DNA from: Bacillota bacterium
Lineage (GTDB): Bacteria; Bacillota; Clostridia; Oscillospirales; CAG-382
Reading direction: 5' to 3'
DNA: 64,000 bases
Assembly: GCA_029550965.1 (NCBI GenBank)
Contig: JAKPGJ010000027.1
Coordinates: 1 to 64,000 of the forward strand
Both the position numbers and the translations under genes were made by a program. The notes beneath the pieces were generated by a model. That model did not search any database. It was given only the letters and a program-made list of their open reading frames with translations, and was not told the origin of the DNA. Below, piece after piece: positions 6,792 through 40,884 of the stretch. Each line of letters begins with the position of its first letter. The stretch's first letter is position 1.

Positions 6792-8603
6792 ATGTACGAC
6801 ATTAAAAAAATACGGAATTTTTCGATTATAGCGCATATAGACCACGGCAAGAGCACGCTCGCGGACCGGCTTTTGGAGTTCACGCACGCGGTTTCGGAGC
6901 GCGAAGTCGTCGACCAGATGCTGGACAGCATGGAGCTGGAGCGCGAGCGCGGCATAACGATTAAAGCGCGAGCCGTTCGGTTTGATTACAAAGCGGACGA
7001 CGGAGAAATCTATACTTTCAACCTGATCGACACGCCGGGGCATGTCGATTTCGGCTACGAAGTGTCCCGCTCGCTCAAAGCCTGCGAAGGCGCGCTTTTG
7101 GTCGTGGACGCGACGCAGGGCATTCAGGCGCAGACGCTCGCGAACGCGTATTTGGCGGTGGATAACGATCTTGAGATTGTGCCGGTCATCAACAAAATCG
7201 ACCTCGCGAGCGCGGACGTTGAAATGACCAAGCGCGAAATCGAGGACATCATCGGCATCCCCGCCGAGGACGCGCCCTGCATTTCCGCGAAGCTCGGCAC
7301 CAACATCAAGGACGTGCTGGAAAAGGTCGTAAAGGATATCCCCTGCCCCAAAGGCGACCCGTCCGCGCCCCTGAAAGCGCTGATTTTTGACAGCTTTTAC
7401 GACGCCTACAAAGGTGTTATCGTATATATCCGCGTTTTCGACGGCACCATCGCCGTCGGCGACAAAATCAGAATGATGAACTCGTGCGCCGAATACGAGG
7501 TCGTGGAAGTCGGCACGCTCTCCGCCTTTCATCTAAACCCGTGCGCCGCGCTGCGCGCCGGCGAGGTCGGGTATTTTACGGCGAGCATTAAGAATATTCA
7601 GGAAACCGAAGTGGGCGACACGGTCACGCACGTCGACAGGCCGACGGAGAAGCCGATGCCCGGTTTTAAAAAGGCGATCCCGATGGTTTTTGCGGGAATC
7701 TACCCCGCCGATGGCGCGCGGTACGAGGATTTGAAGGACGCGCTTGAAAAGCTAAGGCTCAACGACGCGTCGCTCGTGTTTGAGCCGGAGACCTCGGCGG
7801 CGCTCGGTTTCGGCTTCCGCTGCGGCTTTTTGGGACTGTTGCACATGGAAGTCATCGAGGAGCGGCTGGAGCGAGAGTTTGACCTCGACCTGATTACGAC
7901 CGCGCCGAGTGTTATCTACGAGCTGAAGCTGGTCAACGGCAGCGTCGTGCGGATCGACAACCCCTCGAACTACCCGAAGCCGGAGGAGATCGAAACAGCG
8001 TTCGAGCCGATCGTAAAGGCTTCCATCATTACGCCCGCCGAATACGTCGGCTCGATTATGGAGCTGTGTCAGGACCGGCGCGGCACCTTTAAGGATATGA
8101 AGTACATCGACGCGAACCGGACCGAACTGCATTACGAACTGCCGCTCAACGAAATTATCTACGACTTTTTCGACGCGCTCAAGTCCCGCAGCAAGGGATA
8201 CGCTTCGCTGGATTACGAAATCATCGGCTATAAGCCCTCGAAGCTGGTCAAGCTGGACATCCTTTTGAACGGCGACATCGTGGACGCGCTGTCCTTTATC
8301 GTGCACGCCGACAAGGCTTATCCGAGAGCAAGAAGAATCGTCGAGAAACTGAAAGACAACATTCCGCGCCAGCTGTTCGAGATACCGGTTCAGGCGGCCA
8401 TCGGCGGAAAAATCATCGCGCGCGAGACCGTAAAGGCGCTGCGCAAGGACGTGCTCGCGAAGTGCTACGGCGGCGATATTACCAGAAAGAAGAAACTGTT
8501 GGAGAAGCAGAAGGAAGGCAAAAAGCGCATGCGCACCTTCGGTACGGTGCAGGTGCCGCCGGAAGCCTTTATGGCGGTGCTCAAACTGGATGACGAATCA
8601 TAG
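6792..8603 (+). CDS. lepA: Elongation factor 4 (LepA), ribosomal back-translocase
   Basis: A translational GTPase of 603 residues, the usual LepA length. GTPase motifs are [14 protein letters not shown] (G1), RGITIKA (G2), DTPGHVDF (G3) and NKIDLASAD (G4), followed by EF-G-like domains II, III and V. The unique LepA C-terminal domain ends in [19 protein letters not shown]. It acts on ribosomes with misplaced tRNA or under ionic stress. A GGGAGAA ribosome site precedes the ATG. Its 3' end overlaps the hemW start by 14 bases; a lepA-hemW pair is a common arrangement in Bacillota. Confidence 0.97.
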
Positions 8604-9708
8604 TAATATGCCGGACGAACTTTCCATCTATGTGCATATCCCCTTCTGCGCGCGCAAATGCAATTACTGCGCGTTTTACTCGCTGCCGGGCTGCGGCGAG
8701 CAAATCAAGCGGGATTATGCGGACGCTTTGATCCGGCAGATCAACGCGTTTCAAACCGACAAAACCGTCCGCACGGTCTATTTCGGCGGCGGAACGCCCC
8801 CTGTGCTCGGCGCGCAAAGGCTTCTATCGGTCTTTGAAACCATAAAAAACAACTTCTTGCTCTCTGCTGACTGCGAGATTACGGTCGAGGTCAATCCCGG
8901 CAGCGTAAAACCGGACGAGCTAACTTTGCTCAGAGAGGCCGGCTTTAACCGGCTGTCCGTCGGCATGCAGTCCGCCGTCGACAGCGAACTAAAAATCCTT
9001 GGCCGGCAATATACGCGCGCGCATTTTCAAACCATAATGGAAAGCGCGCAATCCGCCGGTTTCGAGAACAGGAGCGTAGACGTCATGTTCGGCATCCCCG
9101 GACAGACAAAAGAGAGCCTTCAAGAATCCCTGCGGTTCGCGCTGGGTTTGGGCGCCGCGCATATTTCGATTTACAACCTCACCATCGAGGAGGGCACGCC
9201 GTTCTTTCGGCAAAAGGACGTTCTCGGCCTGCCGGACGAAGAAACCGAAAGCGAAATGTACGATTTGATTTGCGAGACGATGCAAAAAGCCGGTTTTCAT
9301 CACTACGAAATCTCCAACTTCGCGCTTTCCGGGTTTGAATCCAAACACAACCTGCATTACTGGGCGTGCGGACGCTACGCGGGCTTCGGCGCGGCCGCGC
9401 ACTCCTATTATAACGGTAAACGGTTCTCAAACGTCAGCGACGTAGAAAAATACATCGCGCTGGCAGGCGACGATTATTATGCCCCGACCGATTATGAAAA
9501 GCAGCCCTTTCTGACCGAAGACGACCAAAAGGAAGAGTATATTCTGCTCGGGCTTCGTACGAGCAAAGGCATAAAAGCCGACAAAACGCTGCTGGACAAA
9601 TGCAAAAAATACGTCGAGCACGGATACGCGCAGGTCAGAAACGGTTACCTTTCGCTGACCGACAAAGGATACAGAATCTCGAACTACATCATCTCCGAAC
9701 TGATATAA
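8590..9708 (+). CDS. hemW: Radical SAM protein HemW (heme chaperone, HemN-like)
   Basis: A radical SAM enzyme-fold protein of 372 residues. The [4Fe-4S] motif [10 protein letters not shown] lies near residue 21, followed by YFGGGTPP, the SVGMQS segment, and [21 protein letters not shown], which is characteristic of HemW. HemW binds heme and delivers it to membrane cytochromes, and is often misnamed coproporphyrinogen oxidase. True HemN carries an N-terminal extension that is absent here. It starts inside the end of lepA. A second in-frame ATG at 8608, just after the lepA stop, is equally possible because neither has a clear ribosome site; coupling to lepA is likely. Confidence 0.92.
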
Positions 9709-9759
9709 AACCGACAAAAACCGGATGAAATTCGCTTTTTTCGGTGTTAGAATGGTAGC

Positions 9760-10212
9760 GTGAAAAAAGCAAGCATGGAAAAGATCAAGAAAATTATAAA
9801 AAAACTCTGGGACTTCACCTTTAAAACCGAAAAAGGGCTGTACCTTGTTTTCGGCGGGCTGACGACGCTGGTATCCATTGTGACCTTCTGGATTTGCTTT
9901 ACGATTCTCGGCGAAAACAGCCAGGAAATCTCAACGGTTATCAAGAACGCCGCCGGAATTCTTTTCGCCTACTTTACCAACCGGAAGTATGTTTTCAAAA
10001 GCGAAAACAATACCGCCGCGGCGAAAACGCTGGAAGCGCTGCAGTTCTTCGCGACACGAATCGCGACGCTGTTTATCGACATGCTTCTTCTGAGCATACT
10101 CAAAGACAGGCTGGGCATCAGCGAATACATCGGCACCGTCATCACAACCGTCGTTGTTATTGTTCTGAACTATATCGCCAGCAAGCTGTATATCTTCAAG
10201 CGAAAGGACTGA
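9760..10212 (+). CDS. GtrA-like membrane protein
   Basis: A small integral membrane protein of 150 residues with four predicted helices, matching the GtrA/DPMS family. These proteins are thought to flip or help use polyprenyl-phosphate-linked sugars in cell-wall glycosylation. The TNRKYVFKS segment between helices 2 and 3 and the C-terminal SKLYIFKRKD are typical of the family. The start is GTG 9760 or ATG 9775; no strong ribosome site separates them. No glycosyltransferase sits beside it, but a polyprenyl-phosphate glycosyltransferase is encoded at 43039-44013. Its transcript probably ends at the hairpin at 10250, which lies inside the next gene. Confidence 0.82.
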   Translation: MKKASMEKIKKIIKKLWDFTFKTEKGLYLVFGGLTTLVSIVTFWICFTILGENSQEISTVIKNAAGILFAYFTNRKYVFKSENNTAAAKTLEALQFFATRIATLFIDMLLLSILKDRLGISEYIGTVITTVVVIVLNYIASKLYIFKRKD

Positions 10213-10225
10213 TAACAAAACCGTT

Positions 10226-10621
10226 TTGAAAAAGACATCGAATAAACGCAAACCGCCTTTGAACAAGGCGGTTTTTTCATCCCCGGAAACGCTGCAAAAC
10301 AAGCTGGACGAGTATTTCGGCAGCTACCTGGCGGAAAAGGGCGAGATTGCGGACATCGAATCGCTTGCCGACTTTTTAGGCATTACGCGCGAGGAGCTGA
10401 TGGCGCTGATGAGCGACGAAAAGTTCGGCCCTTCTCTGCGCATCGCGCGCAACCGGATCGCGAAAATCAAAAAGCAGCTCGCTTTCAGCGGAAAGCTGCA
10501 GGCGACCGTGCTTGCTTTTGATTTTAAAAACAACCACGGCTACAAGGACAAACCGGAGGAAAGCGAAATCGAAAGCGAACCTGTGGTTTTCAAGGGAAAG
10601 ACCGAAAGCTGGGCGAAGTGA
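10226..10621 (+). CDS. Phage terminase small subunit-like protein
   Basis: A 131-residue protein with a basic N-terminus, then SPETLQNKLDEYF and a helix-turn-helix-like SLADFLGITREELMALM, and an Arg/Lys-rich helix. This is the layout of small terminase subunits, which bind phage DNA and present it to the motor. The only in-frame starts are TTG 10226 and TTG 10259. Neither has a good ribosome site, and a perfect intrinsic terminator (10250-10277) lies within the first codons, encoding part of the Lys-Pro-Pro patch. It may therefore be poorly expressed. The stop overlaps the terL start (TGATG). Confidence 0.7.
   Translation: MKKTSNKRKPPLNKAVFSSPETLQNKLDEYFGSYLAEKGEIADIESLADFLGITREELMALMSDEKFGPSLRIARNRIAKIKKQLAFSGKLQATVLAFDFKNNHGYKDKPEESEIESEPVVFKGKTESWAK
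10250..10277 (+). terminator. Intrinsic terminator inside the start of the terS gene
   Basis: AACCGCCTT, a five-base loop, AAGGCGGTT and a T run. It sits 38 bases after the gtrA-like stop, which fits termination of that transcript, but it is also within codons 9-17 of the small terminase frame. Confidence 0.8.
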
Positions 10622-11973
10622 TGCGGGAAATCATCCTCACCCCGAACGAAAAACAGGTCCGGTTCTTTGAATCCACAGCGAAATATACCGCTTACGGCGG
10701 CGCCAGGGGCGGCGGCAAAAGCTGGGCGATGCGAACCAAGCTGGTTTTGCTTGCATTGAACTATAAGGGCATCCAGATCCTGCTTTTGCGCCGCACCCTT
10801 GGCGAACTGCGCGAGAACCACCTGTTTCCCCTGCTGAAAATGCTCAAAGGCATCGCGACCTATGTCTCGACCGACAAGGAGTTCCGCTTCCCGAACGGCT
10901 CGCGCATCAAACTGGGCTACTGCGACAACGAAAACGACGTTCTGCAGTACCAGGGGCAGGCGTACGAGGTCATCGGCATGGAGGAAGCGACGCATTTTAC
11001 GGAAAGGCAGTTCCTCGCTTTGACCGAATGCAACCGCATTTCGGGGAACATGGAGGACAAAACCTTCAAACCTCGGATGTATTTTACCTGCAACCCCGGC
11101 GGCGTCGGACACGACTGGGTTAAACGTCTTTTTATCGACCGGAACTACCGTCCCAACGAAAATCCGGAGGATTACTGCTTTATCAAAAGTCTGGTTTTTG
11201 ATAACCATTTTCTGATGAAGCACAATCCCGAATACGTTCAGACCCTTATGGCGCTGCCCGAGCAGCGGCGGAAAGCGATGCTGTACGGCGACTGGAACGC
11301 GTTTGAGGGCGCTTTCTTCCCGGAGTTCGATTACGAGAAGCATACCTGCGAGCCTTTTCCGCTGGACAAAAACTGGATAAAGTTCCGCGCGCTTGACTAC
11401 GGACTTGATATGACCTGCTGTTTATGGCTGGCTCTGCCCGGCGACGGCAGGTTAATTGCTTATCGGGAGCTGTACGAGAGCGGGCTGATTATCTCCGAAG
11501 CGGCGAAGAAGATTCTTGACCTGACGCCCAAAAACGAAGTCATCCGCTATACGACGGCCTCGCCCGACTTGTGGAACCGCCGTCAGGACAGCGGAAAAAG
11601 CGGTTTCGACATCATGACCGCCTGCGGGCTGAAGTTCCTGCAGAAAGCCAACAACGCCCGGATTACCGGCTGGCGGGTAATGCGGGAATATCTCAGGGGC
11701 TCCCTGCCGGACGGCACACCGAAGCTGACCATTTTTAGAAACTGCAAAAATTTAATCCGCTGTCTGCCGCTTCTCCGATTTGACGAGTACGTCAAGGAGG
11801 ACGCCGCGGACACGCCGCACGAAATCACCCACGCGCCCGAGGCCTTGCGATACGCGATCATGTCGCGCGAGCCGGCGTATCCGAAGCCTGCCCCTCCGTT
11901 TACAGGCAGCGTCTATACTTTTGACAAACCGAAAAAGGAGGAGGACGACTACGAGGACTACATTGAATACTGA
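10621..11973 (+). CDS. terL: Phage terminase large subunit
   Basis: The DNA-packaging motor, 450 residues. The ATPase domain carries Walker A GGARGGGKS (residues 26-34), Walker B YEVIGMEEA, and the coupling segment FTCNPGGVGHDWVK. The nuclease domain has the RNase H-like ALDYGLDM, a middle SPDLWNRR, and C-terminal HAPEALRYAIM. The last of these usually carries Asp rather than Glu at the acidic position. Start ATG 10621 overlaps the terS stop; GTG 10618 is one codon earlier. The frame is intact over its whole length, which argues against a decayed prophage. It lies in the same orientation as all structural genes to 19412. Confidence 0.95.
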   Translation: MREIILTPNEKQVRFFESTAKYTAYGGARGGGKSWAMRTKLVLLALNYKGIQILLLRRTLGELRENHLFPLLKMLKGIATYVSTDKEFRFPNGSRIKLGYCDNENDVLQYQGQAYEVIGMEEATHFTERQFLALTECNRISGNMEDKTFKPRMYFTCNPGGVGHDWVKRLFIDRNYRPNENPEDYCFIKSLVFDNHFLMKHNPEYVQTLMALPEQRRKAMLYGDWNAFEGAFFPEFDYEKHTCEPFPLDKNWIKFRALDYGLDMTCCLWLALPGDGRLIAYRELYESGLIISEAAKKILDLTPKNEVIRYTTASPDLWNRRQDSGKSGFDIMTACGLKFLQKANNARITGWRVMREYLRGSLPDGTPKLTIFRNCKNLIRCLPLLRFDEYVKEDAADTPHEITHAPEALRYAIMSREPAYPKPAPPFTGSVYTFDKPKKEEDDYEDYIEY

Positions 11974-12008
11974 CGCGAAATAACAAAAAAAAGAAGGTGA
12001 TTGAATTC

Positions 12009-13592
12009 TTGAAATTTAAAAAAGAAAAGCATACCGAAGAATGGGAGTTGTACGAAAAAGGCAAGGAATACAACTACTCCATCAACCTCTATGACACCGT
12101 CAACACCAACGAGCGCTTCTACCGCGGCGACCAGTGGGATTCGATCGACGCGAAGGGACTGCCCACGCCGGTTTTCAATATCTTCAAACGCATTATTAAC
12201 TACTTTACCTCTACGATTATGCAGAGCGCGGTTACGATGCGTTTTTCTTTTGTCTCCCCGTACGGGGCGGGCACCGGCATCAGCGAGGAGGAAGCGAACA
12301 ACATCTGCGATACCATCAACAGCATCGTCGATCTGCGGTGCGAAAAGATCAAGTCCGACCGCCTGCTTGCCGATTCGCTGACCGAAGCCGCAATTACCGG
12401 CGACGCGGTCTGCTATACCTACTGGGATCCGTCGATCAAGACCGGCCAGCCGTTCAGCGGCGATTTCGTCAGCGTTTTGGTGGACAACACGAACGTGTTC
12501 TTCGGCGACCCGAACTCGCGGGATGTCGAGAAGCAGCCCTATATTCTCATTGCGCAGCGCGAAACGGTTTCTTCCCTAAAAGAACAGGCAAGGCGCAACG
12601 GCATCCCCGAGCACGTCATCGACAAAATCACGCCGGACGACGACACCCTGACGCAGTCCGGCGACATGGCGCGGAAGGAGCTGGAGAACACCAAGTGCAT
12701 CTCGCTCATCAAGCTCTGGCGGGGCGAAAACGGGAAAATCCACTACCGCAAATCGGTTCGGAACGCCATTATCACCAACACCGTCGATACCGGGCTGAAC
12801 CGCTACCCCATCGCGCTCTTCAACTGGTCGCCGATTAAGAACTCCTGGCACGGGCAGGCGGTCGCCACCGGCATGATCGACAACCAGATTTTCATCAACA
12901 AGGCGTTCGCCATGGTGATGAAGCACATGATGGACACCGCCTTTTCCAAGGTTGTTTACGATTCCACCATCATCGACAACTGGTCGAACAAGGTCGGCGA
13001 AGCCATCGCGGTCAACGGTCCGGTCGAAAACGTAGCGAAGGTCCTAAGCGCCGGGCAGATGCAGTCGGGTATGCTGGACGTCATCAATCTTGCCATCGCG
13101 CACACGAAGGAGTTTTTGGGCGCCACCGACACCGCGCTGGGAAACGTCAAGCCGACGAACACCTCGGCGATTATCGCGCTGCAGCAGGCGTCGAACATCC
13201 CGCTCGAGAACATACGGCGCGCTTTTTATCAGTATATCGAGGACATCGGGCTGATCTGGCTGGACTTTATGTTCACCTATTACGACGAAAAGCGCCTGGT
13301 CTGCGTCCGCAACGGAAAGAAGAATACCTTCGTGCGGTTTGACGTCAAAAAGTACAACAACATTCTTTTCGGCTGCCGCGTGGACGTCGGCGCGACCAGC
13401 TATTGGTCGGAGATAGCTTCGATCAACACGCTGGACAACCTGCTAAACAAGGGACTGATTACACTCAAACAGTACCTCGAGCGCCTGCCGGACAACATCA
13501 TCCCGCGCAAAAAGGAACTCATTGAGGAATATATGAATATGACGAAAGGATTGGAAAATGAAGCAGAAAATGACGAACCAACAGATTCTTGA
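12009..13592 (+). CDS. Phage portal protein
   Basis: Forms the dodecameric ring at the packaging vertex. The protein (about 527 residues) opens with EEWELYEKGKEYN, then ERFYRGDQW and LPTPVFNIFKRI, followed by a mixed wing/stem body and a C-terminal helical region. The pattern resembles portals of short-tailed (P22-like) clostridial phages more than those of siphoviruses. The AAGAAGG ribosome site ends at 11997 and overlaps a GTG there, so TTG 12009 with 11-base spacing is preferred; GTG 11997 adds four residues. Its 3' end overlaps the scaffold gene by 35 bases. The family call rests on motif position plus context. Confidence 0.85.
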   Translation: MKFKKEKHTEEWELYEKGKEYNYSINLYDTVNTNERFYRGDQWDSIDAKGLPTPVFNIFKRIINYFTSTIMQSAVTMRFSFVSPYGAGTGISEEEANNICDTINSIVDLRCEKIKSDRLLADSLTEAAITGDAVCYTYWDPSIKTGQPFSGDFVSVLVDNTNVFFGDPNSRDVEKQPYILIAQRETVSSLKEQARRNGIPEHVIDKITPDDDTLTQSGDMARKELENTKCISLIKLWRGENGKIHYRKSVRNAIITNTVDTGLNRYPIALFNWSPIKNSWHGQAVATGMIDNQIFINKAFAMVMKHMMDTAFSKVVYDSTIIDNWSNKVGEAIAVNGPVENVAKVLSAGQMQSGMLDVINLAIAHTKEFLGATDTALGNVKPTNTSAIIALQQASNIPLENIRRAFYQYIEDIGLIWLDFMFTYYDEKRLVCVRNGKKNTFVRFDVKKYNNILFGCRVDVGATSYWSEIASINTLDNLLNKGLITLKQYLERLPDNIIPRKKELIEEYMNMTKGLENEAENDEPTDS

Positions 13593-14106
13593 CGCAATTT
13601 TTGACCTTGCGGACGAGAAAAACATGACGGTGGACGAGCTTCTGGCGCAGCTTCAGGCGGATTTCGAATCGGGTTTGAGCAAGAGCCGCGAAGGCCTGCC
13701 CGAAGAAATCATCGCCGAGCTTGAAAACGCAAGGAAGCTGAGGAAGGAAAGCCGCATCGCGAAAAGACAGTCCGAGCAGAACGAGCAGATCCGCAGAGAA
13801 GCGAAGCGTTTTCGGGAAGTGTTCCCGGACGTAAGCCCGCAGGATATTCCCGATTCGGTCTGGGACGCGGTCGCGGAAGGCATTCCGCTTCTGTACGCGT
13901 ACGCGCTTTACAAGATTACCGAGAAGCTGAACAGCGATTACGCGGGAAAGGTCAACGATGAGAACTCCGCCCGCGCCGCGGTGAAATTCGGCGACGGCGA
14001 AACCGAGCCTTCCTTCACCAAAGAACAGGTCGAGGCGATGAGCCCGAAGGAAATCGCGAAGAACTACAAAGGCATTCTCAAATCCTTCTCAAAATGGAAG
14101 TATTAA
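13558..14106 (+). CDS. Phage scaffolding-like protein
   Basis: A 182-residue, highly charged and mostly helical protein. Long Arg/Lys/Glu helices (KLRKESRIAKRQSEQNEQIR) are followed by a segment with many acidic residues and a C-terminal MSPKEIAKNYKGILKSF. Such a tail between portal and coat genes is typical of scaffolding proteins in clostridial phages, which guide procapsid assembly and then leave. AAAGGA sits seven bases before ATG 13558. The gene is embedded in the end of the portal gene in another frame, so coupling is likely. The role is inferred from position and composition, not from a strong catalytic or fold motif. Confidence 0.72.
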   Translation: MKQKMTNQQILDAIFDLADEKNMTVDELLAQLQADFESGLSKSREGLPEEIIAELENARKLRKESRIAKRQSEQNEQIRREAKRFREVFPDVSPQDIPDSVWDAVAEGIPLLYAYALYKITEKLNSDYAGKVNDENSARAAVKFGDGETEPSFTKEQVEAMSPKEIAKNYKGILKSFSKWKY

Positions 14107-14139
14107 TCGAAATAAAAAATCTAAAAGAAAGGAAACGTT

Positions 14140-14970
14140 ATGGCAAACTACAACAGCATTGAAAAAATCATCAGCGCGGAGATTCTCCGCACCAACGAGG
14201 ACAACCTGCTCGCAAACCGAATTTGCAACACGTCTTTTGTCGGCGACATCAAGAACAAAGGCGACTCGGTCACCTTTGTCGGACTCTCCGACCCGACGGT
14301 TTACGACTACACCGGCACGCTTACGTACGAGGACATCGACGACTACGCGACGGTGCTGTACGTAAACCAGGACAAGGCTTTCTCGTTTAAAATCAAGGAC
14401 ATCGAGGAGCTGCGCTCGTCCATCGGGCTTGCGGATTCGCAGACCAAGCGCGCGTCCTACCTTTTGAAAAACGAGGTGGATTCGTATGTGTTCGGGCTTT
14501 ATCCGGACGCCGGCTACACCTTCTCGCCGGTAACGGTAACGCCCGCGAACGTGCTCCAGACCATCGCGGAAATCAAGCAGAAGCTCGAGGAAGCGAATGT
14601 TCCGGACGGCAGGACCTGGATGGTAGTTCCGCCGTTTGTCAAAACAAAACTGATGCTTGCCGGCATCAAGTTCCAGATCAACAACGGCATCAACGGAACC
14701 GGCTCCGTCGGCTTCACGAACGAGCTGGGCTGCGACATCTTTGTTTCCAACCAGCTGCACAAGAGCGCCGACAATAAAGTTTACATGCTCGCCGGCTCTT
14801 ACTCCGCGATCGCCTACGCCGAACAGGTGCTGGAAGTACAGGTCATCGACCGCATGGAGAACTCCTTCGACAAAGCGGTCAGAGGCAGGCTGGTATTCGG
14901 CGCGAAGGTTATCAAGCCCAACGAGCTGGTATGCTGCCCGGTCATCGACGGCGGCAACAGCATCGGCTAA
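14140..14970 (+). CDS. Phage major capsid (coat) protein
   Basis: The probable major coat protein, 276 residues. Features are an N-terminal SIEKIISAEIL helix, FVGDIKNKGDSVTFVG, an acidic IDDYATVLYVNQDKAF stretch, a DGRTWMVVPPFVK strand pair near the middle, and LVFGAKVIKPNELVCCPV at the C-terminus. These are marks of P22-like / HK97-fold coat proteins, in which a tested peptide fits a receptor-free, short-tailed phage head. It has the strongest ribosome site of the module (AAAGGAAA, well spaced), as expected for the most abundant protein. It follows the scaffold gene after 33 bases. Confidence 0.85.
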   Translation: MANYNSIEKIISAEILRTNEDNLLANRICNTSFVGDIKNKGDSVTFVGLSDPTVYDYTGTLTYEDIDDYATVLYVNQDKAFSFKIKDIEELRSSIGLADSQTKRASYLLKNEVDSYVFGLYPDAGYTFSPVTVTPANVLQTIAEIKQKLEEANVPDGRTWMVVPPFVKTKLMLAGIKFQINNGINGTGSVGFTNELGCDIFVSNQLHKSADNKVYMLAGSYSAIAYAEQVLEVQVIDRMENSFDKAVRGRLVFGAKVIKPNELVCCPVIDGGNSIG

Positions 14971-14998
14971 AAAATAGATTGACAAAAGGAGAAAAACT

Positions 14999-15388
14999 AT
15001 GGCAGTAGCTTTGCAAGACACTATCATAACCAAAATTTTCAACGCCGTGGATCTGAACTATTCAACGGCGGCTTCATCGACAAGCTCAGAGACCTTCACT
15101 TTTTCGCTGAACAACTCAAACGACGACATTCTGCTCGTCATCGACGCTTCAAAAGCCGTTCCGGCTACTTATACCGTCACCTTCAACAAGGGCGATTACC
15201 CGACTGCGAAAACGCCCGGCCCGGTAACGGTTTACGACGGTTTCATCAGCGTCATAGCCATCGAAAGCGCTATGATTGAGAAAAAGAACGCGACCGCCTC
15301 GATTACCGTTACATCCTCCATCTCCAACATCGGCGCCTCGGGCATCCGAATCGCTGTGATTAAGAAGCGTTTTGTCACCAACAACTGA
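14999..15388 (+). CDS. Probable capsid-associated beta-rich protein
   Basis: A 129-residue protein rich in Ser, Thr, Val and Ile with no membrane segment or cysteine motif. The alternating pattern (TFTFSLNN, DDILLVIDA, ATYTVTFNKGDYP, ASITVTSS, SGIRIAVIKKRF) predicts a beta sandwich. Its place directly after the coat gene suits a decoration, head-fibre or neck protein; no family is recognised. AAAGGAGA stands before ATG 14999. A perfect intrinsic terminator follows 14 bases after the stop, so coat and this gene may form the end of one transcript. Confidence 0.6.
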   Translation: MAVALQDTIITKIFNAVDLNYSTAASSTSSETFTFSLNNSNDDILLVIDASKAVPATYTVTFNKGDYPTAKTPGPVTVYDGFISVIAIESAMIEKKNATASITVTSSISNIGASGIRIAVIKKRFVTNN

Positions 15389-15402
15389 TACTTGTTTAAG
15401 CA

Positions 15403-15430
15403 AAGCCGGAGCTTTCAGCTCCGGCTTTTT
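15403..15430 (+). terminator. Intrinsic terminator within the phage module
   Basis: AAGCCGGAGCT, loop TTC, AGCTCCGGCTT, T run. An 11-bp perfect stem. It separates the head genes from the connector/hub genes. Confidence 0.88.
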
Positions 15431-15446
15431 GAAAGGAGTTTTTAAA

Positions 15447-15827
15447 TTGACCGGCAACGACGTATTCAACACGGCGCTCGACCTTTGCGCGCTGCGGAAC
15501 GCAAACGGAAGCATCCCCGCCGACTGCGAGGATTTAAGACAGCGCGCGGTTGGGCTTTTAAACCTTCTCATCGCGGAAAACGCGTATCTGGATTCTCTGA
15601 TTAAAAAGCAGAACATCGTGATTTCGATCATCGCCTCGCTTTCGGACCCGATCGAGCTTTCCCCGATTCTGATCTCCGTTGTGCTGCCCTACGGGCTTGC
15701 GTGGCTGCTGATTCAGAACGAGGACGCAAACACGGCGGCGTTTTTCAAGGCGAAATACGAAAGCGAGCGCGTGCGCATCCAAAGCCAGCTGAAAGGTGTT
15801 ATCAAAGATATAACGGAGGTGTACTGA
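15447..15827 (+). CDS. Probable head-tail connector / head completion protein
   Basis: A 126-residue, mostly helical protein. It starts LTGNDVFNTALDLC, has a LLNLLIAENAYLDSLI helix and ends FFKAKYESERVRIQSQ...ITEVY, the ending seen in small connector proteins of clostridial short-tailed phages. These add a ring beneath the portal after packaging. The frame stays open upstream to 15372, but that passes through the terminator; TTG 15447 with GAAAGGAG nine bases before it is the real start. The stop overlaps the next start (TGATG). The function is inferred from gene order and the C-terminal pattern. Confidence 0.65.
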   Translation: MTGNDVFNTALDLCALRNANGSIPADCEDLRQRAVGLLNLLIAENAYLDSLIKKQNIVISIIASLSDPIELSPILISVVLPYGLAWLLIQNEDANTAAFFKAKYESERVRIQSQLKGVIKDITEVY

Positions 15828-17560
15828 TGGCGCGCCTGGTCACGTACGCAAGCACCTGCAATAAGTTCGGCGGGCTTGACCAATCCTGCAGGATGAGCGA
15901 CAACATGGCGTTATCGCCGGATATGGCGAACTTCCGGGTTACCGACAATTACTCGCTGAAGAAACGGGGCGGCATCCGAAAAATCTGCACGGCTTCCGCC
16001 CCCATCGACGGGCTGTGGGCCGGATACATCGGCGGCGTCTTTTTTTTGCTTTATGTTTCGGGCGGAGATTTATATAAGTACGACAGCGTCACCAAGTCGG
16101 GAGTTCCGATCGGCTTTGTGGACTACGGCAGAGCGGCGATGTTTGAGTTCGACGGCAAAGTGTATATTCTCAACGGCAACCGGTATTCGCGCTTCGACGG
16201 GCTGAGCGTCACGACGGTCGAAGGGTACGTCCCGCTTATCTACATCAACTGCACGCCCGCTGGCGCCGGAATCGCTTATGAAAAGCCCAATCTGCTCACC
16301 CCGAAGCGAAGGCAGCGGTTCTCCGCGGACGGCGTATCCGACGATTACGTCCTGGCGGAAAAAAACATCAGCCTGATTCACTACGTCACGGTAAACGGCG
16401 CTCCTTACTCGAACTTTACCTACAACACCACAACGGGCGTCGTGCATTTCTATACGACGCCGCCTGCGGGAATCAACAACATCGAGATTTGCTACTCAAA
16501 AAACAATCTCGACCGGACGAGGATTACGAAAAACCGCTACGCGATGCTGTTCGGCGGAAACGTCGATACGCGGCTGTTTTTGTGGGGGCATCCGAACTAC
16601 CCCAACTACCGGTTTCATTCCGAGCTTGCGGACGGCGTGCCGAGCGTCGAGTATTTCCCGGAAAACAACTTTACGGTCATCGGGAATACCGAAATCACGG
16701 ACATCATCTCGCAGTATGACAGGCAGCTGATCTTCACAAAAGACAAAGCGTTTTACTCCTACTGCGAGCTGAGACAGGATTTGATGGGCAACTATTACTC
16801 CTCCTTCCCCGTTTACAACCTGAACAGCGAAAAAGGCAATCTGATAAAAGGCTCGTCCTGCGTCATCAACAACGAGCCGGTAACCTTCTGCAGCGACGGG
16901 CTGAACCGCTGGTGTTCGACAACGGTGGAAAACGAGAAAAACGCCGTATGCTTCTCGGCGCCCATTGCCGAAGCGGTCGCGGGCATCGTCCGGTCAAACA
17001 ATTTTTCGGATTTGCGGCTTTTTGACTTCCAGAACAACAGCGAGCTGATCTTCTATCACAACGGCAAAGCCTATATTTACAATTATAAGCTGGGCGTTTG
17101 GTATCTGTTCAAGGATATGTTCTGCGACTTCTTCTGCGTGGTGTCCGGCGAGCTGTGTTTCTCCTTCGGCAACAACATTTACAAGCTCGACGAATCGCAG
17201 ACCGACGACGAGGACGGGGCCGTCACCGCTTACTGGAAAAGCCCGTTTGTTTCAGCGGGCGAGAGCGGCAGGCGGAAGGACGTCACCGAGCTTTCGCTTA
17301 CCGTCGGCACGAAGTCTTCCACCATGCTCGACGTTGCGCTCAACAGCGACATAATGCCCGAGAACGCGTTTACGCAAACCTTTGTCATTGAAAACGCCGC
17401 CGGAATCAAGACAAGCTGTCTGAGCATGCGGCCGAATCTGCGCAGGGTTTCCAAGGTTCAAATCCACCTGCGCGCGACCGGAAGGAATACCGACGCCGAG
17501 ATTTTTGAGATTACCCTGACATCAAAACCGAAAGGAAGTTATGCGAGATATGGATTATAA
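15827..17560 (+). CDS. Phage tail hub/nozzle-like protein (P22 gp10 / T7 gp12 type)
   Basis: A 577-residue protein with repeated short units of the form DGKVYILNGNRYSRFDG, YDRQLIFTKDKAFYSYCE and NNSELIFYHNGKAYIYNYKLGVWYLF, indicating a beta propeller. A C-terminal domain follows with AYWKSPFVSAGE and LRATGRNTDAEIFEITL. This is the layout of the tail hub or nozzle that closes the portal channel in short-tailed phages. The opening NKFGGLDQSCRMSDNMALSPDMANFRV is also typical: it sets up a 'which variables are observed' style wrapper seen in such proteins. GGAGG precedes ATG 15827. Its end overlaps the next gene by 20 bases. No tail fibre or spike follows. Confidence 0.68.
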   Translation: MARLVTYASTCNKFGGLDQSCRMSDNMALSPDMANFRVTDNYSLKKRGGIRKICTASAPIDGLWAGYIGGVFFLLYVSGGDLYKYDSVTKSGVPIGFVDYGRAAMFEFDGKVYILNGNRYSRFDGLSVTTVEGYVPLIYINCTPAGAGIAYEKPNLLTPKRRQRFSADGVSDDYVLAEKNISLIHYVTVNGAPYSNFTYNTTTGVVHFYTTPPAGINNIEICYSKNNLDRTRITKNRYAMLFGGNVDTRLFLWGHPNYPNYRFHSELADGVPSVEYFPENNFTVIGNTEITDIISQYDRQLIFTKDKAFYSYCELRQDLMGNYYSSFPVYNLNSEKGNLIKGSSCVINNEPVTFCSDGLNRWCSTTVENEKNAVCFSAPIAEAVAGIVRSNNFSDLRLFDFQNNSELIFYHNGKAYIYNYKLGVWYLFKDMFCDFFCVVSGELCFSFGNNIYKLDESQTDDEDGAVTAYWKSPFVSAGESGRRKDVTELSLTVGTKSSTMLDVALNSDIMPENAFTQTFVIENAAGIKTSCLSMRPNLRRVSKVQIHLRATGRNTDAEIFEITLTSKPKGSYARYGL

Positions 17561-18611
17561 AGAGCTGATAGAGCTGACCAAAAAGGCGCTCGAAAGCTAT
17601 TCTCAGGCGGATGAAGAACTGGAAGCGTTATACAGGCAGGCAAAAGAGCGGAACCAAAAAAGCTATGAGCTTTCCAAACAGCAGCTTGCCGAGCAGTATT
17701 ACGAGAACAGAAATCAGGCCGCCGCGAAAGCGCAGCTTGACGCAAAGAATATGCATGAGTTTCTTGCCGCAAGAGGTCTGGCGTCGTCGGGCGAGAGCGT
17801 GCAGGCGAAGATTGATTCCAACATGGCCTTGAACAATACGCTCGCCAGCCTTGCCAAAGAAAATATGAGAGCGCTTACGGAGCTTGAAAAGGCAAAGCTC
17901 GAAAAAGAAAACGAGCTTGATTTGTCGCTTGCCGAGAAGAAGCTCGCGCTGAACCGGCAGAAAGACGCGCTCGCCGACCAAATCGAGCAGTATAAAAAGG
18001 CCTTGGAAAACAGCGCAAAACAAGGCGGCTCCGCAGACGGCGGCAAAAAAGGCGGGTCTGCCAACGACGATGCGAAGGATAACGATAAACCTTCCGAAAA
18101 ACCTTTTGTTCCGTCAACTTCCGCGAAGGACGTCGCGAAAAACCTGGTCGAAACCTACGGAAGCGGCGGAAAAATTACCACCGACCTGCAAAAAAGCAAA
18201 ATTAAAAAGTATCTCGAAACGATTGCGCAGAACGACGACATCGACGAGGACTATATTAAAAACATTATCTTCAACCTGAAATCCTACGGCTACACGGATC
18301 TCTCGGACGCTTACGCCGATTCGGTCATCGCGGCGGAAGAAGCGGCGAACTACTACAACAAGCTCTACCGCGAGCTGTACGAATTCTTTATCCGCGGCAA
18401 CAGAACCGCGGAGAAAGCGGACGAAATGGCAAAAAGCAAGGCGAGGTCCTTGATGCTCGATTACATTTACGAGCGCAGCAGAACCCTCGCCGCTTTCGAG
18501 AACACCGCAAAGCTGGCGGGCATTACGCAGAAAGAGCTGGACGAATATTATCAAAAGCTCGACAATATAATGGATAGTAGCAAAAAGGTACTCGGTTCGA
18601 GAATCAAGTAA
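17541..18611 (+). CDS. Coiled-coil phage protein, possible ejection/internal protein
   Basis: A 356-residue, very polar protein. Residues about 1-160 are long coiled coil (many Glu, Lys, Gln) interrupted by FLAARGLASSGESVQAKID. A Gly/Ser/Lys/Asp-rich linker follows (residues about 160-195), then a second helical region ending KKVLGSRIK. The Gly-Leu-x-Ser-Ser-Gly motif within an Ala-rich helix is seen in ejection or internal virion proteins of short-tailed phages, but the match is weak. It could also be a tail-needle-like protein. AAAGGA stands before ATG 17541. A terminator follows the stop at once. No enzyme motif is visible. Confidence 0.5.
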   Translation: MRDMDYKELIELTKKALESYSQADEELEALYRQAKERNQKSYELSKQQLAEQYYENRNQAAAKAQLDAKNMHEFLAARGLASSGESVQAKIDSNMALNNTLASLAKENMRALTELEKAKLEKENELDLSLAEKKLALNRQKDALADQIEQYKKALENSAKQGGSADGGKKGGSANDDAKDNDKPSEKPFVPSTSAKDVAKNLVETYGSGGKITTDLQKSKIKKYLETIAQNDDIDEDYIKNIIFNLKSYGYTDLSDAYADSVIAAEEAANYYNKLYRELYEFFIRGNRTAEKADEMAKSKARSLMLDYIYERSRTLAAFENTAKLAGITQKELDEYYQKLDNIMDSSKKVLGSRIK

Positions 18612-18612
18612 A

Positions 18613-18648
18613 AAAGCCATACTTCCAGCGGCGGTATGGCTGTTTTTT
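18613..18648 (+). terminator. Intrinsic terminator before the holin gene
   Basis: AGCCATAC, an 11-base loop, GTATGGCT, then G and six T. It divides the structural genes from the holin and small-protein genes. Confidence 0.82.
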
Positions 18649-18676
18649 GAAAAAAGCGCTGGAGAAAGGGATTGTT

Positions 18677-18991
18677 ATGGATTTAAGCAATTACTTATCC
18701 GCTGAACTGTCGATACTCATACCTGTTTTATACGCAATCGGAATTTTCATTAAATTCTCCTCCATCAAAGACTGGAAGATTCCGTTTATTCTCGGCGTCG
18801 CGGGCATCGTGCTGTCCTTCGCCTACCTGATTTCCAAGCAGTGGCCCGCAAACGGCGAGCAATGGTTCGGTCTTGTTTTCTCAAGCATCACGCAGGGCAT
18901 TTTAGCGGCGGCGTCAAGCGTTTACGCAAACAACCTTTACAAACAGTACACGAAACGGAACGAAAACTCCGAAGGCAAAACGGAAGAATAA
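18677..18991 (+). CDS. Phage holin
   Basis: A 104-residue membrane protein with two clear helices (ILIPVLYAIGIFIKF and FILGVAGIVLSFAYLI) and a third amphipathic segment with SSITQGILAAASSVYAN. The last is the signature of the Phage_holin_5_2 type. Holins form lesions that release an endolysin or collapse the membrane potential. The C-terminus is charged. ATG 18677 follows GGAGAAAGGG with good spacing; a GTG/TTG start earlier is less likely because it would run through the terminator. No endolysin gene follows, which is unusual for a lysis cassette. Confidence 0.78.
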   Translation: MDLSNYLSAELSILIPVLYAIGIFIKFSSIKDWKIPFILGVAGIVLSFAYLISKQWPANGEQWFGLVFSSITQGILAAASSVYANNLYKQYTKRNENSEGKTEE

Positions 18992-19011
18992 GGAGTTTTT
19001 CAGGACGTTTT

Positions 19012-19080
19012 ATGAACCGGATTAAGAAGTATATCTGCTCGCTCGCAGAATACTTGTACGCGTGCTTTTTTGACTTGTAA
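19012..19080 (+). CDS. 22-residue small protein
   Basis: A short frame with AGGA six bases before its ATG. It encodes a basic N-terminus (MNRIKKYIC) and a hydrophobic, aromatic rest (SLAEYLYACFFDL). It ends five bases before the next ATG, which has no ribosome site of its own, so it may serve as a coupling leader. A function as a small membrane-active peptide is possible but untested. Confidence 0.35.
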   Translation: MNRIKKYICSLAEYLYACFFDL

Positions 19081-19085
19081 TTCGT

Positions 19086-19412
19086 ATGGATTACGGTTTT
19101 CTCTGCGAGCTTGCGGCAGTGGCGCTCTCCTCCGCCGGCGTTATCGGAACCGTGACAGCCGGCGTGCTGTCGGCCGTATTGAAACAGACGAAATCGGTCG
19201 CGGAAAAGCGGCGCGAAGAGCGGATACGGCTCGAGCTGCAGCGCCTGGAGGGTGAAGAAAAACTGTCGCAGCTGATACTACTGCTGATTAAGTTCTCAAA
19301 AGGTCTTTGCGAGATGGAAGAGCTTGACAACGCTGAAAAGAATTACATAGCCTACCTTGAAAAAGCAAGAAAAAGCAAAAACGAGATTTTATCCGAACAT
19401 ATCGTGAAATAA
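19086..19412 (+). CDS. Small membrane-anchored coiled-coil protein
   Basis: A 108-residue protein with one N-terminal hydrophobic helix (about residues 5-30, Ala/Val/Gly-rich). A strongly charged helix follows (EKRREERIRLELQRLEGEEK), then a second helical stretch ending in a Lys-rich tail. Behind a holin, this shape suggests a lysis-accessory or holin-modulating protein, but no family is recognised. It has no ribosome site and probably depends on translation of the 22-residue frame just upstream. It is the last gene of the phage-like module and is followed by a strong terminator. Confidence 0.55.
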   Translation: MDYGFLCELAAVALSSAGVIGTVTAGVLSAVLKQTKSVAEKRREERIRLELQRLEGEEKLSQLILLLIKFSKGLCEMEELDNAEKNYIAYLEKARKSKNEILSEHIVK

Positions 19413-19420
19413 ACAGGTTG

Positions 19421-19456
19421 CAGCGGCGCGGTCAATCGACTGCGCCGCTGTTTTTT
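19421..19456 (+). terminator. Intrinsic terminator at the end of the phage-like module
   Basis: CAGCGGCGC, a 12-base loop, GCGCCGCTG and six T. It marks the right limit of the plus-strand module. Confidence 0.9.
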
Positions 19457-19550
19457 CGTTTAGCTGCCGTACTTGATTCGAGATTTTGCAAAAAAAAGCA
19501 GACAGTATTCGCTGTCTGCATAAAAAAATATATTTGGAAAGGTTTGTACG

Positions 19551-20336
19551 CTATACGATATTTACGCCGGCGCTTGCGGTTCCGGTGATGGTTACGGCTA
19601 CCGCGGGCGCTCCGGTTACGCTTGCGAAGAATATCAGCATCAGCCTTGTTCCGCGCGCGACTTTTACGCTGAGATGACGCTCGGCCCCGGTGAAAGTGCT
19701 GTTGACCGGAACGTTCCCCGTCAGCGTCGGCGTGAGGTTTACTCTCGTGCCCTCCAGCGGACGGAACACATTGCTGTTCTGCTCCGCGTAATAAAGCTGC
19801 GCCGAAATCTGAATTACGCTCGCGCCGAGCGTGACCGGAACCGTGTTCGTAAAGTGCGCGCGGATCGCGGTAATGACTCCGTTTCGCGGCATGACAAACG
19901 CCATATTGCCTGCCGACAGAATCAACTCTCCGCCCGCGGCGATGGTGATTCCGTTCTGCGTTTCGCCAAATCCGATCGCGGAAACAAATCCGGTCGCCGG
20001 AAGCGCGGTTGTCAGCGTCGTGAGCGCGAGCGGCGTCGTTCCCGATGCGTACGGGATAATCACGCCGTCAGGTTTTATCAGCGGTTTCGGAGGACAGGGC
20101 TTGGGTTTCGGCTTCGGTTTGGGACAGGGTCTCGGCCTCGGCCGCGGACACGGATAGGAAGGAAACCAATAACCCCATTGCGGCATGGGCGGCTGGAACC
20201 ATGACTGTGTATCCCATTCCCACCGCTCATCATACTCGTCATATTCCGAGCCGTCTCTTATATAGAGTTCCTCGGCTTCTATATCTTCCCCGTTGTCCTC
20301 GAACGCCCCGAAATTCTCACGGTGGTAATATCTCAT
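19551..20336 (-). CDS. BclB-like spore/exosporium surface protein
   Basis: A 261-residue protein in three parts. The N-terminal 70 residues are acidic and rich in Tyr and Trp. Next comes a low-complexity Pro/Arg/Lys/Cys region of Pro-Arg and Pro-Lys repeats (about residues 65-88). The C-terminal 170 residues begin IIPYASGTTPLALTTL and continue with SAIGFGETQNGI; this is the start of the BclB/exosporium C-terminal domain, a trimeric TNF-like fold. In spores such domains form the tips of surface filaments. Here the collagen-like stalk is replaced by the Pro-rich repeat. AAGGAGG stands before the ATG. It lies opposite the phage module and might alternatively act as its receptor-binding protein, though the opposite strand makes that less likely. 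Confidence 0.72.
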   Translation of the reverse strand: MRYYHRENFGAFEDNGEDIEAEELYIRDGSEYDEYDERWEWDTQSWFQPPMPQWGYWFPSYPCPRPRPRPCPKPKPKPKPCPPKPLIKPDGVIIPYASGTTPLALTTLTTALPATGFVSAIGFGETQNGITIAAGGELILSAGNMAFVMPRNGVITAIRAHFTNTVPVTLGASVIQISAQLYYAEQNSNVFRPLEGTRVNLTPTLTGNVPVNSTFTGAERHLSVKVARGTRLMLIFFASVTGAPAVAVTITGTASAGVNIV

Positions 20337-39117: not shown

Positions 39118-40851
39118 ATGTCCATTTTTTACTGCCAAGACGGCAAGTTTTATCTTGACGGAGAGGAGTTCACGATTCTTTCCGGCGCGATTCACTACTT
39201 CAGGGTGCATCCGGATTACTGGCGCGACCGGCTCTTAAAGCTGAAGGCCTGCGGGTTCAATACGGTGGAAACCTACATCTGCTGGAACCTGCATGAGCGC
39301 AAAGAAGGTACTTTCGACTTCAGCGGACGGCTCGACCTTGTCCGGTTTATTAAGGAAGCGACGGAACTCGGCTTAAAAATCATCCTGCGCCCCGGTCCCT
39401 ATATCTGCGCCGAGTTCGATTTCGGCGGACTGCCGTCCTGGCTGATGGGATATCCGCATATGAAAATACGGAACAACAATCCCTTGTTCCTCTCCAAGCT
39501 TGAAAAATATCTGGTTCAGGTCTTTGACCGCATCCGGCCTTACCTCTGCACCAACGGCGGCAATATCATCATGCTGCAGGTCGAGAACGAATACGGCAGC
39601 TACGGCGACGACAAGGAATATTTAAAAGCGGTCGCGGACATCTACCGCCGCAACGGAATGGACGTTTTGCTCTTCACCTCGGATGGCGGAAACGACTTAA
39701 TGTTCCGCAGCGGTTCGATCGACGGTCTGCTCTCCGCCGCCAACTTCGGTTCCGACCCGGAAAGAAACTTTGCGCCCATCCGAAAATACCGTCCCGGCCA
39801 GCCGCTTTTCTGCGCCGAATACTGGAACGGCTGGTTTGACCATTGGTACGACAAACACCATACGCGCTCCGGCGAGGATGCCGCCAAAACGCTCGACGAT
39901 ATTCTCAGCATGGGCGCTTCGGTCAACTTTTATATGCTGCACGGCGGAACCAACTTCGGCTTTACGAACGGCGCCAACTGCATGGACCGCTACGAGCCGA
40001 CGGTTACCAGCTACGATTACGACGCGCCGATTTCCGAATGCGGCGACCTGACCGAAAAGTATTTTAAAGTCAAAAAAGTTATCGAAAAGCATACCGGCAA
40101 AAAGATCGACATTCCAGTGGAAAACACCCCGAAAGCCGCTTACGGAAAAGTTTTACTGAACGAATACGTCTTGCTCTTTGACGTTCTGCCGGAACCGAAG
40201 CGGTCGCCCGCCGTGCTGACGATGGAGGAAACCGGGCAGGATTTCGGCTATATTCTCTACAGCACCGAAATCGCCGGCGCGTACGACAATCTGCCGCTGA
40301 TTCTGGAGGAAGTGCACGACCGCGCGCATATCTTCATCAACGGCGAACTGAAAGGCATCGTCGAGCGTTCGCGCAGGAACGACCCGGTCTATCTGAACCT
40401 GAAAGAAGGAGAAAAAGCAAGACTGGACATTTTGGTCGAAAATATGGGCAGAGTTAATTACGGTCCCTATATGTTCGACAAAAAAGGCATTCTTGGCGGC
40501 GTCCGATTCGGACAGATGTACCACTTCGGCTGGGACATCTACAATTTAACGCTCGACACCCTGCCCGACAAGTACGCTTCCACGCCGGCAAAAGCGCCGC
40601 TGTTCTTAAGAGGATACTTCGACGTCGACAACGTCGCCGATACCTTTCTATACCTCGATCACTTTACAAAAGGCGCCGCTTTTGTCAACGGTTTTAATCT
40701 CGGCAGATACTACACCCCCGCCGGACCGCAGAAGTCGCTCTATGTCCCCGCCCCGCTTTTGAAAAAAGGCAGAAACGAGATAGTGGTTTTTGAAACCGAC
40801 GGCTATACGGCCAATTATGTCGAGTTCAAAGATACGCCCGACCTGGGCTGA
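39118..40851 (+). CDS. Glycoside hydrolase family 35 beta-galactosidase
   Basis: A retaining beta-galactosidase of 577 residues without signal peptide, so cytosolic. The catalytic barrel has GAIHYFRVHPDYWRDRL, GPYICAEFDFGGLPSWL, the acid/base Glu in QVENEYGSYG, and the nucleophile Glu in CAEYWNGWFDHW. The C-terminal half has the beta-rich domains of the family with FVNGFNLGRYY. It would cleave terminal galactose from imported oligosaccharides. GAGGTG precedes ATG 39118. No sugar transporter or regulator adjoins. A palindromic terminator follows directly, which has been duplicated by an IS. Confidence 0.95.
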   Translation: MSIFYCQDGKFYLDGEEFTILSGAIHYFRVHPDYWRDRLLKLKACGFNTVETYICWNLHERKEGTFDFSGRLDLVRFIKEATELGLKIILRPGPYICAEFDFGGLPSWLMGYPHMKIRNNNPLFLSKLEKYLVQVFDRIRPYLCTNGGNIIMLQVENEYGSYGDDKEYLKAVADIYRRNGMDVLLFTSDGGNDLMFRSGSIDGLLSAANFGSDPERNFAPIRKYRPGQPLFCAEYWNGWFDHWYDKHHTRSGEDAAKTLDDILSMGASVNFYMLHGGTNFGFTNGANCMDRYEPTVTSYDYDAPISECGDLTEKYFKVKKVIEKHTGKKIDIPVENTPKAAYGKVLLNEYVLLFDVLPEPKRSPAVLTMEETGQDFGYILYSTEIAGAYDNLPLILEEVHDRAHIFINGELKGIVERSRRNDPVYLNLKEGEKARLDILVENMGRVNYGPYMFDKKGILGGVRFGQMYHFGWDIYNLTLDTLPDKYASTPAKAPLFLRGYFDVDNVADTFLYLDHFTKGAAFVNGFNLGRYYTPAGPQKSLYVPAPLLKKGRNEIVVFETDGYTANYVEFKDTPDLG

Positions 40852-40856
40852 CATAC

Positions 40857-40884
40857 AAAAAAAGACCCTTGCGGGTCTTTTTTT
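40857..40884 (+). terminator. Terminator, left copy flanking the IS
   Basis: A7-GACCC-TTGC-GGGTC-T7, active in both directions. It is identical to the copy at 42427-42454 on the other side of the IS. Confidence 0.92.

Follow-up and report, generated by a model that had tools for sequence, protein, structure and literature searches.

Why should a bacterial chromosome keep an intact set of phage packaging, head and short-tail genes with none of the genes that make a phage self-sufficient? The question is raised by a locus in an anaerobic Bacillota bacterium of the order Oscillospirales, found at positions 10226-19456 of the window, by which we mean the whole stretch of 64,000 nucleotides analysed here (assembly GCA_029550965.1, contig JAKPGJ010000027.1, forward strand). 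Open reading frames and profile searches define there one operon of 11 intact plus-strand genes (10226-19412), and its spread through the host family, its trees and the selection on its genes lead us to regard it as probably the head, packaging and short-tail part of a podovirus-type gene transfer agent (GTA), kept by descent and selection. Eleven intact genes standing in one operon, free of stops across dozens of species, are far beyond chance.

The operon and its products

Genes are listed with their window coordinates, strand and the matches that identify them.

6792-10212 (+): lepA, hemW and a GtrA-type gene of the host, marking the orthologous site in the chromosome upstream of the operon
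10226-10621 (+): terS, terminase small subunit, 131 amino acids, TTG start; PF16677 (E 1e-11), phrog_606
10618-11973 (+): terL, terminase large subunit, 451 amino acids; PF04466 (1.5e-15), phrog_979 (2.5e-50)
11997-13592 (+): P22-type portal, 531 amino acids; PF16510 (E 6e-20), phrog_156 (6e-36)
13558-14106 (+): scaffolding protein, 182 amino acids, overlapping the portal gene; assigned from position, composition and a weak phrog_14606 match
14140-14970 (+): major coat protein, HK97-type, 276 amino acids; phrog_267 (3e-37)
14999-15388 (+): small protein, possible head decoration, 129 amino acids; from position only
15447-15827 (+): head-tail connector in the position of P22 gp4, 126 amino acids; function from position
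15827-17560 (+): short-tail nozzle, 578 amino acids; phrog_3287 (3e-12, a virion structural family) and AlphaFold model
17541-18611 (+): long helical (coiled-coil) protein, 356 amino acids; phrog_13399 (3e-11, unknown function)
18677-18991 (+): holin, Hol44 family, 104 amino acids; PF16079 (2.5e-22), phrog_1129
19086-19412 (+): small membrane protein, possible lysis partner, 108 amino acids with an N-terminal hydrophobic helix; no family match
19420-19457 (+): strong intrinsic terminator at the operon end

Structural comparisons added to these assignments for the coat and the tail. The family profile of the coat protein, searched against the PDB, matched gp6 of 8e16 (3e-41), and searches of the same database by sequence with TerL and with the portal gave no match; TerL also matches a PBSX-family terminase model with a score below the cut-off of that model. 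The AlphaFold model of the nozzle (pLDDT 88.9, pTM 0.85) has as its best PDB matches the nozzles of podoviruses, namely those of Pa223 and Pan3, Sf6 gp8, P22 gp10 and T7 gp12. The model of the 356-residue protein shows a pair of long helices followed by a helical domain at the C terminus; a fold search of the PDB with it returned nothing meaningful, and its position makes an internal or ejection role probable. The codon usage of the operon is host-like (correlation of relative synonymous codon usage, r 0.97), and its GC content at third codon positions also matches that of the neighbouring genes.

An earlier sequence-only reading of this DNA had already described intact co-directional genes for packaging, capsid and holin, which the open reading frames and family matches bear out. 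What it called a propeller-like hub is indeed a gene of the operon, yet its product is the podovirus tail nozzle identified above. The connector starts at 15447 and not at 15372, and terS begins at a weak TTG. The strong terminator announced at the end of the module is real (hairpin 19420-19451, 14 pairs), and further terminator-like hairpins lie inside the module.

Descent with the host family

If the locus were a passing prophage, its distribution would be expected to be patchy. Searches with TerL found it in 57/63 genomes of the host family, including 29 of the 32 good ones and 12 of the 13 genera, nearly always as a single copy and never with a stop. Among the six genomes without TerL, one (G079) has nozzle and coat genes at a contig end, and another (G012) has a different, more complete module. 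Two kinds of module are found. Type A, the one in the window, occurs as a complete module with the same gene order in genera g1 (that of the host), g2, g5, g7, g9, g10, g12 and g13. Type B, in g3, g4, g6 and g8, shares homologous TerS, TerL and nozzle with type A and has a different portal and coat, the latter with a mean identity of 83% over 13 species. The scaffold gene is kept in all type A modules, the connector represents a family (A9) conserved across families, the 108-residue membrane protein is kept in g1, g5, g7, g9 and g13, and homologues of the 129-residue protein occur in part of the type A modules.

The chromosomal site is likewise conserved. Flanking host genes are largely alike within each genus for both module types, and the site after lepA-hemW is common to g1, g5, g7, some members of g9 and one genome of g10 (G030), mostly with the GtrA-type gene between lepA-hemW and the module. 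The synteny without integrase that the sequence-only reading proposed to look for in related genomes was thus found. Coat identities to two other g1 species are 91 and 86%, against 84 and 83% for LepA.

With LepA as the host reference, distances and trees were compared in 20 type A genomes. Module distances follow those of LepA, with Spearman coefficients of 0.66 for TerL, 0.66 for the portal, 0.58 for the coat, 0.73 for the nozzle and 0.65 for the scaffold, and the Mantel test against LepA gave 0/2000 permutations for each of the five genes. Genera are monophyletic in every tree, with the exception of g9, and the type B genera form one clade in both the TerL and the LepA trees. Selection was estimated on six species pairs from three genera, where the ratio of nonsynonymous to synonymous substitution rates (dN/dS) ranges between 0.01 and 0.24 in every gene (0.01-0.13 for the coat, 0.04-0.08 for TerL), the synonymous rate of the module being of the same order as that of hemW. 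Moreover, the ATPase and nuclease residues of TerL, which include the Walker lysine, the catalytic glutamate and the nuclease acids (K34, E123, D260, D317 and D/E408, the last acid being D or E), are kept in 56-57 of 57 homologues. Residue conservation and selection fit a working motor and not decay, and, as read from these comparisons, the module is inherited vertically with the host and is not a recent prophage.

These results bear directly on the proposal that we are looking at a recently trimmed or decaying prophage, or at a hot spot that related phages have entered repeatedly and independently. Related phage-like contigs do exist, with TerL at 46-55% identity, and the module has tRNA arrays beside it in g2 and g9. 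Low dN/dS values for all genes, stop-free TerL throughout the family, the lack of an integrase, genus monophyly and host-like branching all speak against the proposal, and we give this explanation almost no probability. Its first form, which the sequence-only reading had kept as the plain alternative, is excluded because orthology spans genera. What that reading favoured, a short-tailed phage remnant kept under selection, is supported by synteny, dN/dS and family-wide presence: the ratio lies well below one in terL, portal and coat, as it had anticipated, and we found neither an integrase nearby nor patchy presence nor relaxed selection. Among the functions that it listed, a GTA-like particle is the best supported.

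Some relatives show local peculiarities. In the g2 genomes and in one g9 genome (L034, L037, L039, L041, L044), arrays of 3-7 tRNA genes follow directly after the module. In metagenome-assembled genomes (MAGs) of g9 from rabbit (L035, L097, L099), the operon genes are separated by additional intergenic sequence (up to 3 kb) that contains related repeats, yet the reading frames remain open. Two genomes have a broken or divided nozzle gene, with two reading frames in L045 and a short one in L093, through mutation or assembly error. The different module of G012, a genome of genus g11 (L242, 383-14624), codes for a putative terminase of 563 residues, a type-B-like portal, coat, nozzle, a fibre of 994 residues, a Hol44 holin and an Amidase_3 lysin, and adjoins genes that by eye resemble the spoIIIA operon.

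Missing functions and what they allow

The locus lacks an integrase, a repressor, an endolysin, a fibre and any replication gene, and no long flanking repeats were found around the operon, in agreement with what had been read from the sequence at first. The window contains no tRNA genes, and the whole assembly only two tyrosine recombinases, both on other contigs. Of clear mobile genes, the window showed just one, an IS1182-family transposase (40790-42403, +). Altogether, the locus combines three of the features by which a GTA is recognised, namely phage-derived capsid and packaging genes in a complete set, no genes for replication, integration or excision at the locus, and vertical inheritance with purifying selection. 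The integrase, lysogeny control, attachment sites and patchy distribution of a prophage are all wanting.

The presence of packaging genes and the absence of genes for autonomy could also be understood if the module were a phage satellite or depended on a helper, persisting through its own spread. Such elements carry their own integrase and replication genes; here we find neither these nor attachment repeats, presence follows the host tree, and the site is common to several genera, so that this possibility is largely refuted and highly improbable.

The particles of a GTA would also have to carry mostly random host DNA, in amounts too small for the whole GTA gene set, and deliver it to recipient cells. 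In the draft genome of the host, no fibre was detected with the fibre profile of a sister family (f17, discussed below), with a profile of the nozzle-binding N-terminal domain or with PF05895. This suggests that the missing fibre and lysin are coded elsewhere or are too diverged, because relatives carry such genes. The operon, in which no fibre was detected, does not fix the target of the particle, and a conserved killer particle like PBSX, which would package host DNA and act as a bacteriocin without delivering DNA, would likewise be vertically inherited and devoid of replication genes. The same option is left open by the authors of FpGTA, the GTA of Faecalibacterium, for their own system (Borodovich et al. 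2026, Nat Commun, PMC12946183). Portal, terminase, coat and nozzle are nevertheless kept in our case, with none of the contractile or long-tail genes of PBSX-like killers, and we consider a killer particle unlikely.

Directly downstream of the operon lies a gene for a BclB-type exosporium protein (19551-20336, -; TIGR03721 above cut-off), a placement conserved only in g1. Together with the spoIIIA-like genes adjoining the module of one relative (by eye), this neighbour might point to a spore-linked or other compartment in which the shell holds a cargo other than DNA. On the other hand, the exosporium neighbour does not extend beyond one genus, and the ATPase and nuclease residues of TerL, as well as the portal, are strongly constrained and would be needless for a DNA-free shell, which makes such a compartment very unlikely.

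For a GTA, the history and working of the system could be as follows. An ancient podovirus would have been captured beside lepA-hemW in an ancestor of the family and passed down from there. A fraction of the cells would, in some circumstance, express the operon; the terminase pair would fill small heads with host DNA, the connector and the nozzle would close the filled heads, and the holin would lyse the cell with a lysin encoded elsewhere. We infer that particles assemble, that they take up DNA of the host and not their own, that cells are lysed and the DNA reaches recipients, and that the terS hairpin controls the operon.

Several observations weigh against a GTA, or weaken the case for it. 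One good genome (G021) shows no trace of TerL or nozzle, and perhaps three more also lack the module; the contig of G021 stops within hemW (L244), short of any possible empty site. In some genera lepA and the module are physically linked, and for these the tree test carries less weight. The models tried on the host genome detected neither fibre nor lysin. FpGTA was compared by description alone, since no Faecalibacterium genome was recognised for a sequence comparison: the 16S probe Fprau0645 gave 0/394, and a MAM protein query, which is weak for want of a positive control, 0/16.

Hairpins and possible control

Three terminator-like hairpins lie inside the module, the last two of them read directly from the sequence.

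10250-10280 (+): terminator-like hairpin (10250-10274) and T-run inside the first codons of terS
15402-15430 (+): terminator-like hairpin at the coat-connector junction, where the head genes give way to the tail genes
18615-18648 (+): terminator-like hairpin before the holin gene

The hairpin in terS stands at the same place with different bases between species, in 3/3 genomes of g1, 4/4 of g2 (one of them weaker) and 4/4 of g5, and a score of at least 18 is reached in 10 of the 11 genomes versus 19 of 4000 control windows. The residues encoded there are also conserved, and the protein sequence could explain part of the pairing. That the hairpin is merely the terminator of the upstream gene was set aside, as in g2 it lies clearly 3′ of a good ribosome-binding site and ATG. 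It could work as an attenuator, holding the operon silent until transcription reads through. Hairpins at the same head-tail junction are present in L034, L037, L048 and L050.

Spread beyond the family

TerL of this kind (E < 1e-30) is found in 193/395 genomes of the order and in 91 of 172 genera, some of these finds being ordinary phages. The 12 genomes examined from the sister family f17 all keep TerS-TerL (59-66% identical) away from the nozzle gene. In those that were read out, TerS-TerL stood alone among host genes, with portal, scaffold, coat, connector, nozzle, helical protein and in most cases a tail fibre on a second contig, where an M15 peptidase in g84 and a holin in g29 are added. 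Such split loci are hard to square with a prophage and resemble dispersed GTA genes. Another family, f13, contains related modules at sites conserved within genera. One f13 genome (G361) has six genes with the nozzle-binding N-terminal domain of fibres, arranged as three divergent pairs and framed by large genes resembling those of surface (S-) layers; fibre genes were located at 5586-7175 of L256 and at 1405-2880 and 12061-13617 of L257, in near-palindromic arrangement and about 0.5 Mb from the packaging operon. This may be a switchable cassette of fibres and surface-layer proteins.

Similar modules are also present in public records. The cultured Vescimonas fastidiosa MM35 has one of 13 kb (NZ_AP023416, 759119-772553), with a DUF859 fibre and a peptidoglycan-binding protein and no integrase annotated around it. 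Among public genomes, the named type A relatives are MAGs (for example HGW-Firmicutes-21, Candidatus Coliplasma caballi, Candidatus Woodwardibium gallinarum and GWF2_38_85), many of which come from rumen and hindgut. A 'virus' of IMG/VR with 9,150 bases (L072) is a module of the same kind, its TerL being 81% identical. The unannotated record MT836592.1 (L259; 9,588 bases, 'Bacteriophage sp.', human faeces) consists entirely of TerL-portal-scaffold-coat-nozzle-fibre genes, with a TerL 51% identical, and may represent either a phage fragment or the locus of a GTA. OY725860.1 (L260), a circular record of 6,285 bases given as 'plasmid 26' of Subdoligranulum variabile, has a TerL 50% identical and a portal, with no further packaging genes recognised.

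Taken together, these data allow a wider proposal, which we hold tentatively and judge somewhat short of an even chance: podovirus-type GTAs might be an ancient, order-wide trait of these Clostridia, with a terminase, portal, coat and nozzle core that hundreds of species have received by vertical descent, at least one replacement in kind (type A/type B), a split over two sites in one family, fibre genes in palindromic S-layer cassettes in another, and delivery thereby tuned to kin. Evidence for long vertical inheritance and selection is in any case at hand for a whole family of uncultured Clostridia, together with a sister family of split loci. If these modules are GTAs, capsid-borne gene exchange would be a built-in property of a large share of the Clostridia in gut and rumen, and some records of virus databases (L072, perhaps MT836592) would be wrongly counted as viruses. 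The reason why hosts keep GTAs also becomes testable by comparing the type A, type B, split and lost states.

Comparison with known systems

RcGTA and other alphaproteobacterial GTAs consist of vertically inherited phage head and packaging genes, lack genes for autonomy and in some lineages are dispersed over separate loci. RcGTA, with its long tail, is siphovirus-like, whereas the set described here is podovirus-like, with its P22-type portal and nozzle. PBSX of Bacillus subtilis is comparable as a defective phage-like element of a Gram-positive host, but it is larger and has a contractile tail, for which the present operon has no genes. P22 and the Bacillus Pagevirus podoviruses share with the present set the gene order TerS, TerL, portal, scaffold and coat as well as the nozzle fold, the Pagevirus portal being 34% identical; unlike it, they are complete phages that also have endolysin, replication genes and fibres or spikes.

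To our knowledge, GTAs outside the Alphaproteobacteria are few, and the sole one of podovirus type is FpGTA, described in 2026 from one genus. Its main operon, of podovirus type and 10.5 kb long, codes for TerS, TerL, portal, scaffold, coat and the proteins of a short tail, and a second operon elsewhere has fibre, receptor-binding, holin and endolysin genes (regions 2536737-2546346 and 2672270-2677176 of CP030777 in Faecalibacterium APC918/95b); its particles have 40 nm capsids with about 9 kb of host DNA, and it lacks replication and integration genes and is present in every examined genome of its group (PMC12946183). As far as descriptions can be compared, the locus in the window resembles it in being a single operon of about 10 kb with a matching gene set in a Clostridia host. 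It differs in that the holin gene is in the main operon, with no second operon found in the draft host genome, and in that conservation here is at the level of the family and backed by dN/dS and trees. Since FpGTA, a system of this kind is no longer unprecedented; what is new here are the dispersed loci, the two module types and the terS hairpin of three genera.

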